Assembly: GCA_017561825.1 (NCBI GenBank)
Contig: JAFZBK010000005.1
Span: forward strand, 17,480 to 81,479
Length of the DNA stretch: 64,000 nt
Direction of reading: 5' to 3'
Source of the DNA: Prevotella sp.
Lineage (GTDB): Bacteria; Bacteroidota; Bacteroidia; Bacteroidales; Bacteroidaceae
Of this stretch, positions 59,294-64,000 are shown piece by piece. The notes beneath the pieces are model-generated. The model was not told the origin of the DNA. It made no database searches and saw only the letters and a program-made list of their open reading frames with translations. The position numbers were made by a program, and so were the translations under genes. The number at the start of each line of letters is the position of its first letter. Within the stretch, counting starts at the first letter, position 1.

Positions 59294-61057
59294 TTATATC
59301 TCACCCTTTTCTTTGAGTTCTTTTAGCCCAATAGCAATGGCCTTGTTGATTAGGCTGTTGTTGGCAGTATATGAGTCACCCAAGTAATAGACAGTGTTCC
59401 TTTTCTCCCCTTCTGTTCTCAGGAAATCATGGGCTTTGAATATATCTAGAAATCTTCTTAATTGTTTCTCAGAAAGATGCCCACCAACGATTTTTGCAAG
59501 ATCTGCACGTTTGGCCTTACCATATTTCTGTAAGAAAGGAAGAATTACCGCCCATACCTGATTGATGTCCCAGTCTGTCGCCAATGAGTATGCAGCCATG
59601 TCACCCGCTAACTCATAGTATCGTCGTGGGAGGATGTAATAGATGGCATTTGTCTTTCCATGCTTCTCTATATAGCCCATTTGTTCTAGTTTATGTGTAA
59701 TCGCTTTATCGCTAGGTTTCTTTTGGCCATCTCTTATCTCACAAAGGGCCATTACCTCAAAGACTGTCAGTTTCTTGTCTTCAGGCAAACTGTCCTGTAT
59801 TCCTTGAACGTACATAGCAAAGGCTTTATCTTTCACAGTTGCCAGCAGTATGGCAATCACGGTGAAGTCATCACTCTTTGAATAATCAGGCTCGGGCTTA
59901 CCCTCTGACAATGTAAGTAGGAAGATCTTATCAATACCTTGACCAGAACGTTCAACGATACCTGTTTTTGAAAGCACGTCTGCTAAAAGTCTGTTCCTTG
60001 GTGTACTTGGTACAGTCAGAAGGGTGTCAACGGTAACACCATTCGGAAAACCGCCAGCATTCAGCACTTCAAGTCTCGTTGGGTATTGCTTTACGACTAT
60101 TTCACTATTCTTCCGATAATCACGATGCGCAAAAGCATTGTTTACCAGTTCTCTAATAACATCCTCATTGAAGAAAGGTATATCAAAGATATATGATTCC
60201 TCCCTGATGGGTACAGAGCCATTACGAAGATTAATAGCTTCCCACAGTTTGTCAATCAGGATAAAGAATGGCTGCCCGAATTGGAGACGATTGTCAAAAT
60301 GGATTTGAGCCTCAGTATTGCGATATTCCAACATGACCTTGGCTTGTGGGAATACCTTACTAATGAAAGATTCTTTGCCAACGAGTAGAACTGCAGCGTT
60401 TGTGACTTTGTTCCCACTTATTAAATGCAAGTCACTTAGTGCCTGCCTGTCATCCAGAGATTTAAATGTAGGATTCTTTTGCTTCTTAGCATACTTTTCT
60501 TTCATCACCTTGATGGCTTCTGGGTCCAAATCGTCAAAGGTTGCTCCATCACAGAATTGCTCAGAGAAATCAGGTTCCTGTTCTTGAAGAATTGACAAAA
60601 GAACCTTGTCGTCCATTGGCAGCAAGTCTTCACCAACCCTCATTAAAGCCACATCTTCAAACTTATATACCTTGCCAATTGGTCTTGAAGGAATCTCTAT
60701 CACTACTACTCGTCCTGTCTTGTTCGCCTCATCTTCAAACAGCTCATATACTTCAGGCCGAATACCTGTATCGCGATAGATATTACTCTCCAATTCGCCT
60801 AAGGAATTCTCATTTTGCTTAGTCCCCGTCACCTTATGAGGATAGTCATCGTGCATACCTATGACCATCCTTCCACCACCTTCATTGCAGAGAGCTGTAA
60901 CATATCCAAGGATACATTTGCGTCGGTCTTTGGGCTTTGCTTTATCACCCCCATTGAAAGAGACGTTCCCTTGCTCGCCTTTCTTGAACTCCACATGGTC
61001 TTCTGACTCACGCATCTGCTGTAGTTCTGCTAAAGTATATCTCTTCATTATTGTCAT
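59294..61057 (-). CDS. AlbA_2 (Schlafen-type) and GHKL-ATPase domain protein, putative regulator
   Basis: A 587-residue protein. The AlbA_2 domain (about 15-140) has EDHVEFKKG and ALCNEGGGRMVIGMHDD. An HATPase_c_4-like domain (about 290-400) contains IRELVNNAFAHRDYR, LEVLNAGGFPNG and GIVERSGQGIDKIF. The C-terminal 180 residues look like winged helices. Such proteins are often annotated as RecG-like or transcriptional regulators and are common in defence and mobile regions. Function is unproven. It has its own TATCTTTG box 10 nt upstream of the ATG at 61057 (a second ATG lies at 61048). Confidence 0.87.
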   Translation of the reverse strand: MTIMKRYTLAELQQMRESEDHVEFKKGEQGNVSFNGGDKAKPKDRRKCILGYVTALCNEGGGRMVIGMHDDYPHKVTGTKQNENSLGELESNIYRDTGIRPEVYELFEDEANKTGRVVVIEIPSRPIGKVYKFEDVALMRVGEDLLPMDDKVLLSILQEQEPDFSEQFCDGATFDDLDPEAIKVMKEKYAKKQKNPTFKSLDDRQALSDLHLISGNKVTNAAVLLVGKESFISKVFPQAKVMLEYRNTEAQIHFDNRLQFGQPFFILIDKLWEAINLRNGSVPIREESYIFDIPFFNEDVIRELVNNAFAHRDYRKNSEIVVKQYPTRLEVLNAGGFPNGVTVDTLLTVPSTPRNRLLADVLSKTGIVERSGQGIDKIFLLTLSEGKPEPDYSKSDDFTVIAILLATVKDKAFAMYVQGIQDSLPEDKKLTVFEVMALCEIRDGQKKPSDKAITHKLEQMGYIEKHGKTNAIYYILPRRYYELAGDMAAYSLATDWDINQVWAVILPFLQKYGKAKRADLAKIVGGHLSEKQLRRFLDIFKAHDFLRTEGEKRNTVYYLGDSYTANNSLINKAIAIGLKELKEKGEI

Positions 61058-61067
61058 ATTTTGTTTG

Positions 61068-61075
61068 CAAAGATA
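61068..61075 (-). promoter_or_regulatory. -7 box TATCTTTG of the AlbA_2 gene
   Basis: Minus-strand TATCTTTG ends 10 nt before the ATG at 61057. Confidence 0.6.
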
Positions 61076-61086
61076 ATCATTTTCTT

Positions 61087-62277
61087 TTATAAAAGAGTTT
61101 CACAATATGTCTTATTAACAACCCTATCGCGCATTAATTTCATATCCGTAAAGTTCCTGCTGATGTTTTGAACGACTTCAATGTAGTTGTCTGTTCCATC
61201 TTTCTTAATATAATAATAGGGTTTGATAGAGATACAATTCTTATGTTCAAATAGAGTGTTGAGAAGTGTGCGGTCAGAGTTGCCGCAAGAATGCCCCATA
61301 ATATATACTTGGAATGGTGCAGACTCAATGAATGCCAAAACATTTCTGTAATGATTAGACTCCAGATAGTTTATTGATTTAATATTTCTCCGACATTCAT
61401 TGTCGTTCAGTTCTTTTAATCTCTTGAAGCTTTCTTCAAGTTCATCTCCATAACCAAATATTATGCTTTCAGGCTTTTCTAGTTCACCATGAATATAATT
61501 AATTGAGAAGTTGGGGTTATGATACATTTTTGCTGTTTTTGAATAATTAAAACTCAACAGCATGATATCGTCAGGTAACATAAATGGTCGTGGGTATTCT
61601 TCGCGAAAGATATCTTTCTGTTTTCTTTTGTAATCATCTATATCCGCAAGAGAAAGTTCATCACCATATTTTCTCATTATAGGTTCCCAATATTCTTTTT
61701 CTTGCTCTCTGCACCAATTGATATAATTGTTGAATTCTTTTCTTCCTTCAATAGATATATCAGATGGTTTTATAGCAGAGTATATTTTACTAATTATGGA
61801 ACTATTGATTTTTATTTCTGTTTTATTTACTATAGCTAAATACTCTATCAAAAGGTCTTGCAAATACTGCAATTGCATATTTAATGCTTTCAGATTGTCG
61901 TCTGAAGGTCTTTCTAATGCATATTCTTTTAGTAGAGCATAGTACTCATTCTCTATATCTACCCATCCTTTCGTTTCAATACTTTTGCAGATGTTTTCAA
62001 AGAAAGGAGAATATCTAAACCTGAAACGATCTTTGTTCTCTTTCAATTCTTTTATTATAGCTTTCCCGTTATAACCATAATACGAATTAACATACAATGG
62101 TTGATTCGTCAAGTCTTCGATGGAGCATAAGGCATCAGATGATATGCTCTTTTCCTCGTTATCAAATCCATTAACTCTATAGTCCCAATACCAATTTATG
62201 AAATCTTCATATCTGGTTTTGAGCCCATGAGCCAAGTCAAAGCCATTGCCTATGAGTACGATTCTGTTCATCTTCAT
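61087..62277 (-). CDS. AbiH-family phage abortive-infection protein
   Basis: A 396-residue protein with the AbiH signature. The N-terminus is RIVLIGNGFDLAHGLKTRYEDFINWYW, followed by MLLSFNYSKTAKMY, INYIHGELEKPESIIFGYGDE and MGHSCGNSDRTLLNTLFEH. Lactococcal AbiH blocks phage late in infection by an unknown mechanism. Base composition is clearly more AT-rich than the operons to the left, and Ile/Asn/Lys/Tyr codons dominate, which indicates acquisition by transfer. It begins 3 nt after a 54-codon ORF and seems to share its promoter. Confidence 0.9.
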   Translation of the reverse strand: MKMNRIVLIGNGFDLAHGLKTRYEDFINWYWDYRVNGFDNEEKSISSDALCSIEDLTNQPLYVNSYYGYNGKAIIKELKENKDRFRFRYSPFFENICKSIETKGWVDIENEYYALLKEYALERPSDDNLKALNMQLQYLQDLLIEYLAIVNKTEIKINSSIISKIYSAIKPSDISIEGRKEFNNYINWCREQEKEYWEPIMRKYGDELSLADIDDYKRKQKDIFREEYPRPFMLPDDIMLLSFNYSKTAKMYHNPNFSINYIHGELEKPESIIFGYGDELEESFKRLKELNDNECRRNIKSINYLESNHYRNVLAFIESAPFQVYIMGHSCGNSDRTLLNTLFEHKNCISIKPYYYIKKDGTDNYIEVVQNISRNFTDMKLMRDRVVNKTYCETLL

Positions 62278-62280
62278 TTC

Positions 62281-62445
62281 TTAGGTGTATTTTGATGGAT
62301 ATAACAATGTTCCTGTGTTGCTTGTTATTGCTTCTACATTCAGGATATGCTCCTTTATGGCATCTGCAACTCTATTTTGAGATTGACCATCGTATAAGTC
62401 TTTGCCTATTGGCATGTTTGATAGAAAACCTGCAATTTGGTTCAT
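62281..62445 (-). CDS. Small 54-residue protein upstream of abiH
   Basis: ATG at 62445 to TAA at 62281-62283. The sequence starts MNQIAGFLSNMPIGKDLYDG and continues QSQNRVADAIKEHILNVEAI. It is preceded by a TATATTTG box (62464-62471) at 18 nt, and its stop lies 3 nt before the abiH ATG, exactly as a coupled operon gene would. From memory, the DLYDGQSQNRVADAI segment resembles the region ahead of the Walker A motif in large KAP-like P-loop NTPases of defence loci. It may thus be a stand-alone partner or the leftover N-terminus of such a gene. That resemblance is unverified. Confidence 0.6.
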   Translation of the reverse strand: MNQIAGFLSNMPIGKDLYDGQSQNRVADAIKEHILNVEAITSNTGTLLYPSKYT

Positions 62446-62463
62446 ATAACTTCATTTTTCTGG

Positions 62464-62471
62464 CAAATATA
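62464..62471 (-). promoter_or_regulatory. -7 box TATATTTG of the small ORF/abiH unit
   Basis: Minus-strand TATATTTG, 18 nt before the small ORF's ATG. No such box lies directly in front of abiH itself. Confidence 0.6.
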
Positions 62472-62613
62472 AAGAAAATAATCGAAGAATCCAAATTTTT
62501 ATTCAAATCTTAAAATATTCCTAAGGTATTAGGTTGTAGGTTGCCATTTTAGCAAATTATGTCTAAAAACGCATATTTTTTTGCTTTAATTCGTTCAATT
62601 AAAATAATATGTA

Positions 62614-62621
62614 TATCTTTG
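62614..62621 (+). promoter_or_regulatory. -7 box TATCTTTG driving the long leader of the BspA-like gene
   Basis: TATCTTTG lies 265 nt before the ATG at 62887, implying a 5' leader of about 260 nt, by far the longest in the window. No good -33 element. Confidence 0.55.
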
Positions 62622-62626
62622 CAATG

Positions 62627-62886
62627 CATTGAGGCGAGAATGCCATCTTTGCAAGACATATTGAAAAAACGAAGCGTTATGCTTTTCTTGTAATCGGAAA
62701 CGTGAGAAACTTCCAAAGTCAGCAAGAAAGTGTGACGGTTCGCGCTAATAGCGTGGACTGGTTACTACATCTGCTGACAGGGTTATTCTCACGACCTCCG
62801 ATTGAAGAAGTGGTATATCAGCGCCACGCTTTATTGTTGTCCAATATAGTAATCTTTCCTGAAGTTTAATCAAATACACTACAATT
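62627..62886 (+). ncRNA. Structured 5' leader RNA with nested stems and a possible pseudoknot
   Basis: Pairings read by eye are: P1a ATCGGA/TCCGAT (62693-62698 with 62797-62802) and P1b CGTGAGAA/TTCTCACG (62701-62708 with 62786-62793). P2 is GTCAGCA/TGCTGAC (62718-62724 with 62772-62778), and P3 is GTGAC/GTTAC with one G-U. P4 is a 9-10 bp hairpin (62738-62746 with 62750-62758) capped by AAT. In addition AGCGTGG (62750-62756), in the 3' arm of P4, is fully complementary to CCACGCT (62824-62830) outside P1, allowing a pseudoknot or a switch. No small ORF explains the region. Confidence 0.6.
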
Positions 62887-63543
62887 ATGAATAATAGAGT
62901 CGGAATCCTGTTTACCATCCTTTTGTGCATGGTCGGAACAAAAGCGTTTGCTCATGATATAGCAGTAGTGAATGCTGATGGTATGACAATCTACTACAAT
63001 TACATAAATGATGGCAGAGAGTTGGAGGTAACATATATTGATAATTATTTTGGAATTTATTCTGGAGATGTTGTCATACCTGAGGAAGTAACATTTATGA
63101 ATAGGACTCGAAAAGTGACATCAATCGGTGAAGGGGCTTTTATATATTGCAAGGCTCTTACCTCTGTCACAATACCCAATAGTGTGAATAAAATTGGAGG
63201 GAATGCTTTCGCTGATTGTGATAATCTTACCTCAGTCCATATCTCAAATTTGGAGGCGTGGTGCAACATTTCTTTCAGGAATGAGAGTTCTAATCCTCTT
63301 AGTTGGGCTAATTCTTTTTTCTTGAATGGGGAAAAGATTACCGATTTAATGATACCCAACAACGTGACATCGATTGGCGATTATGTTTTTTTTGGTTGGA
63401 GCGGCCTTAACTCCGTAACCATTCCCAACAATGTGACATCTATTGGCAAGGCTGCTTTCGCATATTGCATCAATCTGACCTTTGTCGCCATCTCCAATTC
63501 TGTGACGTTCATTGGAAATAAAGCTTTCTATTCTTGTATTTAG
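62887..63543 (+). CDS. BspA-like leucine-rich-repeat (LRR_5) surface protein, probably truncated
   Basis: A 218-residue protein with a signal peptide (ILFTILLCMVGTKAFA). An N-terminal beta region (DGMTIYYNYINDGRELEVTYIDN, VVIPEEVTFMNRTRKVTSIGEGAF) is followed by LRR_5 repeats of about 23 residues: LTSVTIPNSVNKIGGNAFADCDN, LNSVTIPNNVTSIGKAAFAYCIN and a last one ending FIGNKAFYSC. It stops abruptly in mid-repeat (TAG at 63541) without the cap or sorting/adhesion domains of full BspA-like proteins. No further repeats follow in any frame. Relatives bind host matrix or other bacteria. It is either a short form or a fragment cut by a rearrangement. Confidence 0.8.
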   Translation: MNNRVGILFTILLCMVGTKAFAHDIAVVNADGMTIYYNYINDGRELEVTYIDNYFGIYSGDVVIPEEVTFMNRTRKVTSIGEGAFIYCKALTSVTIPNSVNKIGGNAFADCDNLTSVHISNLEAWCNISFRNESSNPLSWANSFFLNGEKITDLMIPNNVTSIGDYVFFGWSGLNSVTIPNNVTSIGKAAFAYCINLTFVAISNSVTFIGNKAFYSCI

Positions 63544-63891
63544 AGTTACCTAAACTACCATGAATAATGAAAACTAACCAAGCTTAAATCGCTGTATTAC
63601 AGATACTTTCAGATTTTAACACTTCAGAAGCTGTTTTTGGTCGCTTCGGAAATTCCCTATAAATTTGCAACGTATTTCTACCGCAGGGAATTTACGGGGC
63701 TTTATTTTTGCCACATCGTGAACGAAGTTGACAAGGGTTTCTGACAGGTTACGAAAGTTGACAGATTCCAACTCCGATTTTGAGAAACGGAACATCGTGG
63801 CGAAAGGCGACAAGGGATGTCGAAGGTTTACCTGTGATGACTTGCGGAGAGGTACAACAAAGAATATGTTGAACCCATAAATTTCGCAAGT
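63544..63891. other. 348-nt region between the LRR gene and the zinc-finger gene
   Basis: No convincing gene. An 8-bp inverted repeat AAATTCCC/GGGAATTT spans about 63650-63695. The words GTTGACA and CGACAAGGG recur between 63722 and 63815. A 65-codon minus-strand frame (63616-63813) has no promoter and is judged doubtful. A near-consensus TAAATTTC lies at 63878-63885, just before the next gene. Confidence 0.5.
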
Positions 63892-64000
63892 ATGACAAAG
63901 ACCAGAAAATGCGCTTACTGTGGCAAGGTGTTCGCCACGAACAGCGGAATGCAGAAGTATTGCTCCGAGGAATGTGCCACGGCAGCAAAGGAATCCAAGA
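63892..64000 (+). CDS. N-terminus of a small zinc-finger protein (runs off the window)
   Basis: The frame starts MTKTRKCAYCGKVFATNSGM and is open for 36 codons to the edge. Cys7-x2-Cys10 and Cys24-x3-Cys28 form a treble-clef/zinc-ribbon type site, and the tail is Lys/Ala rich. Such short fingers open several Bacteroidetes mobile-element proteins, but the rest of the gene is needed to say which. Confidence 0.65.
   Translation, partial: MTKTRKCAYCGKVFATNSGMQKYCSEECATAAKESK

Follow-up and report, generated by a model that had tools for sequence, protein, structure and literature searches.

Several described classes of bacterial RNA share some of their features with the leader analysed here. The DUF805b RNA (RF02914, clan CL00115), a cis-regulatory motif of 35 nt, is likewise a leader, though a small one, located close 5' of start codons in the Bacteroidales loci examined. 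Orphan riboswitch candidates and leader RNAs likewise combine a conserved non-coding structure in the 5' UTR, a gene on the same strand and exclusive folds towards the 3' end. In attenuator leaders of the terminator type, a terminator pairing competes with an antiterminator pairing, and 6S RNA, including 6S-flavo, is a long rod-like RNA. Few large RNAs are known to be conserved among bacteria, and little is known of how Bacteroidetes control their genes through RNA.

The leader at positions 62627-62886 of the window (the whole 64,000-nt stretch of Prevotella DNA that was analysed) is composed of a 5' hairpin, a long conserved core and a tail that reaches the start codon of the next gene. The components of the locus are as follows.

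62590-62593, + strand: -33-like element TTCG, weak, one mismatch, 20 nt 5' of the -7 box
62614-62621, + strand: -7 box TATCTTTG (TAnnTTTG)
62625-62653, + strand: 5' hairpin, adjoining the predicted transcript start; segment 62624-62669 folds with -11.3 kcal/mol
62654-62669, + strand: single-stranded linker AGACATATTGAAAAAA; many copies are GACATATTGAAA-like, by eye
62670-62834, + strand: conserved core (G000:C48:80149-80313), 158 bits with model R1, which includes the window copy
62671-62677, + strand: 5' strand of P1, partner 62826-62832
62691-62698, + strand: 5' strand of P4, partner 62797-62804, 80.9% of cells paired
62701-62708, + strand: 5' strand of P5, partner 62786-62793, 96.5% of cells paired
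62718-62723, + strand: 5' strand of P7, partner 62773-62778
62737-62746, + strand: strand A, 5' side of the apical hairpin, partner B (apical stem 62737-62746/62750-62759)
62750-62760, + strand: strand B, common to both exclusive pairings
62786-62793, + strand: 3' strand of P5
62797-62804, + strand: 3' strand of P4
62817-62830, + strand: strand C, pairs with B (pseudoknot) or, via ACGCTT, with P1
62835-62886, + strand: tail up to the start codon, its first 45 nt folding with -0.1 kcal/mol
62887-63543, + strand: downstream gene for a 218-aa BspA-type LRR protein (LRR_5, E 4e-32), signal-peptide-like start by eye

The sequence and coordinates of the leader agree with those of the preliminary description, and its location between a -7 box (62614-62621) and the ATG of a BspA-like gene (62887) was found as stated there. 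The same description regarded the region as free of ORFs, which needs correction, as a very short ORF (ATG CTT TTC TTG TAA) lies at 62679-62693. The whole leader folds with a minimum free energy of -81.8 kcal/mol (z -4.9), and its inner 121 nt (62690-62810) fold with -54.6 kcal/mol (z -8.5), energies that were equalled by 0 of 200 dinucleotide shuffles in either case. The long-range complementarity beyond chance that had been noted in this region thus holds, and the stems are properly nested. The pairing probability of P1 is around 0.8 in the core alone and around 0.2 within the 260-nt leader, as estimated by a method that is blind to B:C because B:C is a pseudoknot.

The perfect 7-nt complement reported previously is present, with AGCGTGG (62750-62756) facing CCACGCT (62824-62830), and is lengthened by three pairs past a small internal loop (CTG 62758-62760 with CAG 62819-62821). 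Since nucleotides 62750-62759 are used by both the apical hairpin and B:C, the two pairings are mutually exclusive, as had been proposed. The RNAduplex energies of the two pairings in the window copy are -15.9 kcal/mol for A:B versus -15.3 kcal/mol for B:C, so nearly equal that neither is a clear winner. Many relatives show, by eye, a 3' hairpin that cannot be made out in the tail of the window copy (62835-62886).

Comparison with the known systems revealed both likenesses and differences. The covariance model of the core comprises 167 positions as against the 35 nt of DUF805b, and the two have no core in common. In contrast to orphan riboswitch candidates, the downstream genes here are unrelated and do not belong to one pathway. 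Strand C is followed by a run of at least five T in 41 of 126 copies, of which 38 do not belong to the genus of the window, and in the likeness to attenuators B:C takes the part of the terminator and A:B that of the antiterminator; the rival pairing here is, however, a long-range pseudoknot over an intact rod, and the window copy is without a T-run. The rod shape is shared with 6S RNA, but no Rfam 6S match was found in the sequence scanned, and the leader often has several copies per genome and usually stands before a gene. A known Rfam 15 family was ruled out, as no match to the leader was found in window positions 60000-64000, where the only match was a chance SNORD26 (E 5.9) off the core, and no match to the core was found on 33 homologue loci (12 + 14 + 9; L092 and L100 counted once). 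The literature search, which covered titles and the openings of abstracts, listed no paper describing the leader, and a fragment of it may have been reported earlier, e.g. among the 3161 candidates of PMC8040213. Judged by comparison of sequences, the element is a widespread structured leader with two exclusive folds kept in evolution, which is not in Rfam 15 and not tied to LRR genes, and whose mechanism we infer.

A BLAST search with positions 62560-62890 gave matches in 14 of 60 genomes, including the window's own. A covariance model of the core with 55 pairs was built from 14 aligned copies, that of the window among them. With the own genome counted each time, this model matched 205 of 299 genomes in a sample of the genus (89 of 130 when limited to good quality), 55 of 198 in a sample of the order (44 of 151 genera, up to 12 copies per genome) and 10 of 198 in a sample of the phylum. 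Among the matches listed, the scores range from 171 to 30 bits, all with E at or below 0.001, and the genome of the window showed one copy in the searches of the three samples. The covariance search of Bacteroidales genomes suggested in the preliminary description therefore yielded homologues, and compensatory changes were found in their stems. No match was obtained in 94 of the 299 genus genomes under strict filters, with nine candidates scored per genome, and the leader may accordingly be dispensable. The copies compared below are the best-scoring matches plus extras from hand-chosen genomes and form a non-random sample in which several share a genome, so that counts over them are not independent.

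A pattern scan of named genomes found at least 117 stretches; many of the 80 listed come from Bacteroidales of the ruminant or horse gut, and a few come from named isolates, e.g. Prevotella sp. AGR2160 and Phocaeicola faecicola. A further cultured carrier is oral taxon 299 F0039. The core was also present in a plasmid collection (four records, one of 1.77 Mb), on six contigs labelled as virus and on one record labelled as phage, and all 11 copies score 111-132 bits with the model. One of them (L302 2627-2798) lies on a 16-kb Bacteroides finegoldii plasmid, 5' of a row of hypothetical genes ending in a NERD protein, and another (L305 6025-6191) lies on a Parabacteroides distasonis plasmid record, 5' of a gene for a DarT-type ADP-ribosyltransferase. 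At L113, two leaders (301-471 and 1750-1917) stand 1.5 kb apart, each 5' of a gene for a small lipoprotein-like product. The two leaders agree letter for letter in the 5' half; the 3' half of the second copy has diverged, with P5 broken, as if by partial gene conversion.

Covariation was analysed in a MAFFT alignment of 104 of the 126 copies. Before alignment, the set was cleared of an identical core and of L098, L068b, L091 and L096, which were divergent or misaligned, and 17 further copies, mostly near-duplicates, were removed by hand. All 16 pairs of P4 and P5 (8 of 8 in each) show changes on both sides. The 23 pairs of P1, P4 and P5 together contain 425 double-change cells versus 136.8 ± 14.6 in shuffled controls, and this signal was lost when the partners were slid. 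P1 is paired in 98% of cells and nearly invariant, with double changes in its outermost pair only; covariation therefore says little about P1, which rests on conservation. B:C is paired in 93.9% of cells of this alignment, which was not fitted to it, and shows 12 double-change cells versus 2.8 ± 1.5 in shuffled controls (0 of 500). The pairs of B:C having any double change are in mild excess (4 versus 2.0 shuffled; 35 of 500). Slid versions of B:C are paired in 28-61% of cells and contain 7-16 double-change cells, similar to the 12 of the true pairing, so on the MAFFT alignment the case for B:C is carried by pairing rather more than by covariation. In 102 of 126 copies, none of the 30 mononucleotide shuffles pairs as well as the best local B:C.

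As the alignment is loose at B:C, an alignment-free test was used, in which the strand of a copy was paired with its own partner and with the partners of other copies (n = 125; L097 was excluded because its strand B could not be parsed). The own partner exceeded the mean of the foreign ones in 124 of 125 copies for P4/P5, 118 for A:B, 112 for B:C and 84 for P1, whereas the negative controls A:C and 5' end:B gave 66 and 68. Against these controls, the values of A:B and B:C indicate that B has retained its pairing with each of the two rival partners. The two exclusive folds claimed for the window copy, and with them the 62750/62824 pairing, are hence recovered in its relatives. Furthermore, the third base of CUN in strand B forms a standard pair with its partner in NAG of strand C in 100 of 115 parsed copies (GC 76, UA 9, GU 6, UG 1, AU 4, CG 4; 20 of 135 copies could not be parsed), where a hand calculation from the marginals gives an expectation of about 75. 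The CG type is that of four class-level copies (L296, L297, L299 and L301), and distant copies such as L091 and L098 keep B:C with different letters. Collectively, the comparison of copies supports the view that both competing pairings have been kept by evolution. Strand B itself is nearly invariant across copies, so a protein site could also explain its conservation, and some letters of the internal loops are near-invariant across distant families.

A contact of strand C with the loop of the 3' hairpin, which is striking by eye, was set aside as weakly supported. It beats all shuffles in 12 of 126 copies, and the own partner exceeds the foreign mean in 80 of 125, close to the controls (66 and 68); the window copy is without this hairpin. 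The folding of the 45 nt 3' of the core exceeds chance by little, with a mean z of -0.64 and z below -1.5 in 24 of 126 copies.

The promoter consensus of Bacteroidetes is TTTG-N19-21-TAnnTTTG. A TAnnTTTG box was found within 140 nt upstream of 114 of 125 copies, mostly 33-54 nt 5' of the core, compared with 12 of 125 in an antisense and 11 of 124 in a downstream control search. The 5' hairpin between box and core varies in its letters. Over 93 copies its z averages -1.9 and falls below -1.5 in 53, and in 74 of them the copy's own halves give a better fold than chimeric ones. In the 58 copies flanked by some 600 nt upstream and no less than 500 nt downstream, a sense ORF of at least 100 aa starts within 110 nt downstream in 50, and an antisense ORF lies just upstream in 2. 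The distance from the end of the core to the chosen ATG has a median of 54 nt. A box upstream and a sense gene downstream make up the anatomy of a 5' UTR, so we infer that the element is very probably a leader RNA transcribed behind a promoter. In Bacteroides thetaiotaomicron, the 5' UTR is reported to have a median length of 32 nt and to exceed 100 nt in 13.5% of cases (PMC7366714), by which measure the present leader would be unusually long. The upstream neighbours of the window copy face away from it; they encode an AbiH abortive-infection-like protein (61087-62277, - strand) and a protein with Schlafen AlbA_2 and HATPase_c_4 domains (59294-61057, - strand), and the leader thus adjoins possible defence genes.

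The 122 proteins encoded downstream of the copies fall into 74 BLAST clusters, 55 of which are singletons. The largest cluster, with 11 members by single linkage, unites LRR and other proteins. Other clusters comprise a small secreted-looking family without Pfam match, TerB-like, DnaJ-domain and HSDR_N-like proteins, a sigma-70 region 2 protein, zinc-ribbon proteins and lipoprotein-like ones. The Pfam scan, which took in 109 of the 122 proteins, identified 125 families, headed by LRR_5 in 7 of 109. The earlier impression that similar leaders precede other Prevotella LRR genes was not borne out in that form: LRR_5 is the commonest downstream family, but at 7 of 109 the leader is not an LRR feature, and a leader specific to LRR genes was ruled out. 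A crude heuristic called signal peptides in 73 of the 122 proteins behind the leader versus 73 of 183 other ORFs of the same loci. No single pathway emerges among the 122 clustered and 109 Pfam-scanned proteins. A regulon of defence genes was likewise rejected, as the PADLOC matches were few: one clear ZorA, three MzaA-like proteins and, for the rest, mostly shared domains, e.g. trypsin. In L021, L026 and L030, the leader lies 5' of a sigma-70 region 2 protein with a weak PD-(D/E)XK nuclease match (L021 scanned), and the tails are different, longer and without the 3' hairpin. The copies L296, L297, L299 and L301, from other orders of the class, have CUC:GAG in B:C and a T-run after C, and by eye three of them are followed by TonB-receptor-like genes and one by a sigma-factor-like gene.

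The reading we favour, with reasonable though not high confidence, is a cis-acting leader RNA with its own promoter, in which A and C alternate as partners of strand B. A transcript of around 200-260 nt would start from a vegetative-type promoter of its own and form the 5' UTR of the next gene, with the 5' hairpin followed by a long imperfect rod (P4, P5 and the inner stems) that carries strand B near its tip. B can either pair with its neighbour A in the apical hairpin or reach back to C at the foot of the rod in a pseudoknot. C sits about 55 nt before the start codon, and the exchange may alter C and the nucleotides following it and thereby set the output. Where a T-run follows C, B:C has the look of an intrinsic terminator, and its rival A:B that of an antiterminator. 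At C, the window copy shows no run of four or more T and hence lacks the mark of an intrinsic terminator, so an effect on translation start or mRNA stability would be expected for it. According to PMC3155529, start regions of Bacteroidetes are generally without Shine-Dalgarno sequences, and structure near the start codon strongly lowers translation in Prevotella bryantii, whereas a hairpin 20 nt upstream does not. Given such an effect of distance, a leader that ends where this one does might do no harm in one state and exert its effect via the tail in the other. Since the genes under its putative control are unrelated, the trigger would be a general one, such as a signalling metabolite or an RNA-binding protein, rather than the product of a pathway.

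Two features expected of a riboswitch were found: a covarying structure in a predicted 5' UTR position, and two exclusive folds that both covary, between which switching is predicted. The leader is probably a general genetic switch. That roughly two in three genomes sampled from the genus carry it, and that the genes behind it are unrelated, speaks for a general regulator not yet named, and the exclusive pairings are defined to the base, which makes switching directly testable.

An unlikely, though serious, alternative to a switch is a constitutive stabiliser or translation part, in which terminal hairpin and rod shield the mRNA, the start codon is kept free of structure and the ambiguity among A, B and C is incidental. 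The kept pairing of the 5' hairpin (74 of 93), the unrelated downstream genes and the harmless P. bryantii hairpin 20 nt upstream (PMC3155529), set beside a median of 54 nt between the end of the core and the ATG, would all suit such a part; a passive one, however, would not need the covariation of both exclusive pairings, and some internal-loop letters are near-invariant over distant families. The sense ORF of at least 100 aa within 110 nt in 50 of 58 copies and the missing T-run (four or more) at C of the window copy speak against a trans-acting sRNA, freed by termination or processing at C, with the downstream gene incidental, a reading of low probability. Such an sRNA would agree with the five or more T after C in 41 of 126 copies, and with L296, L297, L299 and L301, where no sense ORF of at least 80 aa begins within 100 nt and the sequence runs out in at least four T; these four are possibly stand-alone RNAs. 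Among the regulatory-RNA readings offered in the preliminary description, that of a conserved leader is upheld by compensatory changes, and a stand-alone sRNA has become less likely for the window copy, as a same-strand gene follows it.

Control by a leader peptide, in which translation of a short ORF starting from GTTATG in the core would set the fold, deserves very little credence. This start, which the ORF at 62679-62693 of the window has too, occurs in 85 of 126 copies, with an ORF of 4 codons in 30 and of 8 codons in 46, but it is missing from the other 41; the length and codons of the ORF may merely follow the conserved letters of the stem, and no run of regulatory codons was seen in the copies examined. 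A DNA hairpin, either a palindromic mobile element or a recombination site as also envisaged previously, is hardly credible. The core is near-palindromic, and its antisense strand is weakly scored by the model in some copies; several copies may share a genome, plasmid-, phage- and virus-labelled records carry it, and G-U and A-C mismatches are about equal in P4/P5 (54 versus 41). Against this, the promoter (114 of 125 versus 12 of 125) and the gene (50 of 58 versus 2 of 58) are one-sided, the sense strand folds better than the antisense strand in 120 of 126 copies, and G-U exceeds A-C in P1 (38 versus 6) and B:C (46 versus 21), mismatches all counted in the larger set; the ratio of 120 versus 31 in the 14-sequence set is biased, as its structure was predicted by RNA rules. 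RNA rather than a DNA hairpin is likely the functional form. With its relation to promoter and gene strand fixed, a mobile palindromic DNA element was rejected.

DUF805b was found 10-34 nt 3' of the core in 4 of 14 loci, in L092 with 41.7 bits (cut-off 35.6) and in L095, L090 and L094 below the cut-off, and two further tandems of core and DUF805b (L157 and L163) were found from the DUF805b side. DUF805b mostly stands alone, with the R1 core in 2 of 30 of its loci. In the order sample it occurs in 137 of 198 genomes at E 0.001 and in 92 of 198 above the cut-off. It is absent, with its AGAGUAGG tail, from the window leader in the Rfam 15 scan and from the genome of the window. DUF805b and the present core are therefore separate leaders able to stand in tandem and not one family, and the unexplained motif DUF805b gains a partner. 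It is conceivable, yet on balance doubtful, that these large, bistable, pseudoknotted leaders form a phylum-wide, portable sensor of a general signal (a second messenger or a global RNA-binding protein), placed before dozens of genes that are unrelated to one another, with surface, regulatory and accessory roles, and set in tandem with DUF805b in some lineages. If so, the tandems would suggest that two unexplained leader motifs of Bacteroidota constitute one control layer.

A guess that RF02913 is a sister motif of DUF805 was abandoned, as this family proved to be pemK. In the DUF805b loci L139-L168, a loop GCC or TCC matches GGC or GGA after AGAGTA, the two co-changing by eye, and from these letters DUF805b itself appears to contain a very small pseudoknot. 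At L154 (G484:C65:83627-85758), four DUF805b copies lie within about 2 kb, and the two examined precede small basic proteins that look like peptide precursors.
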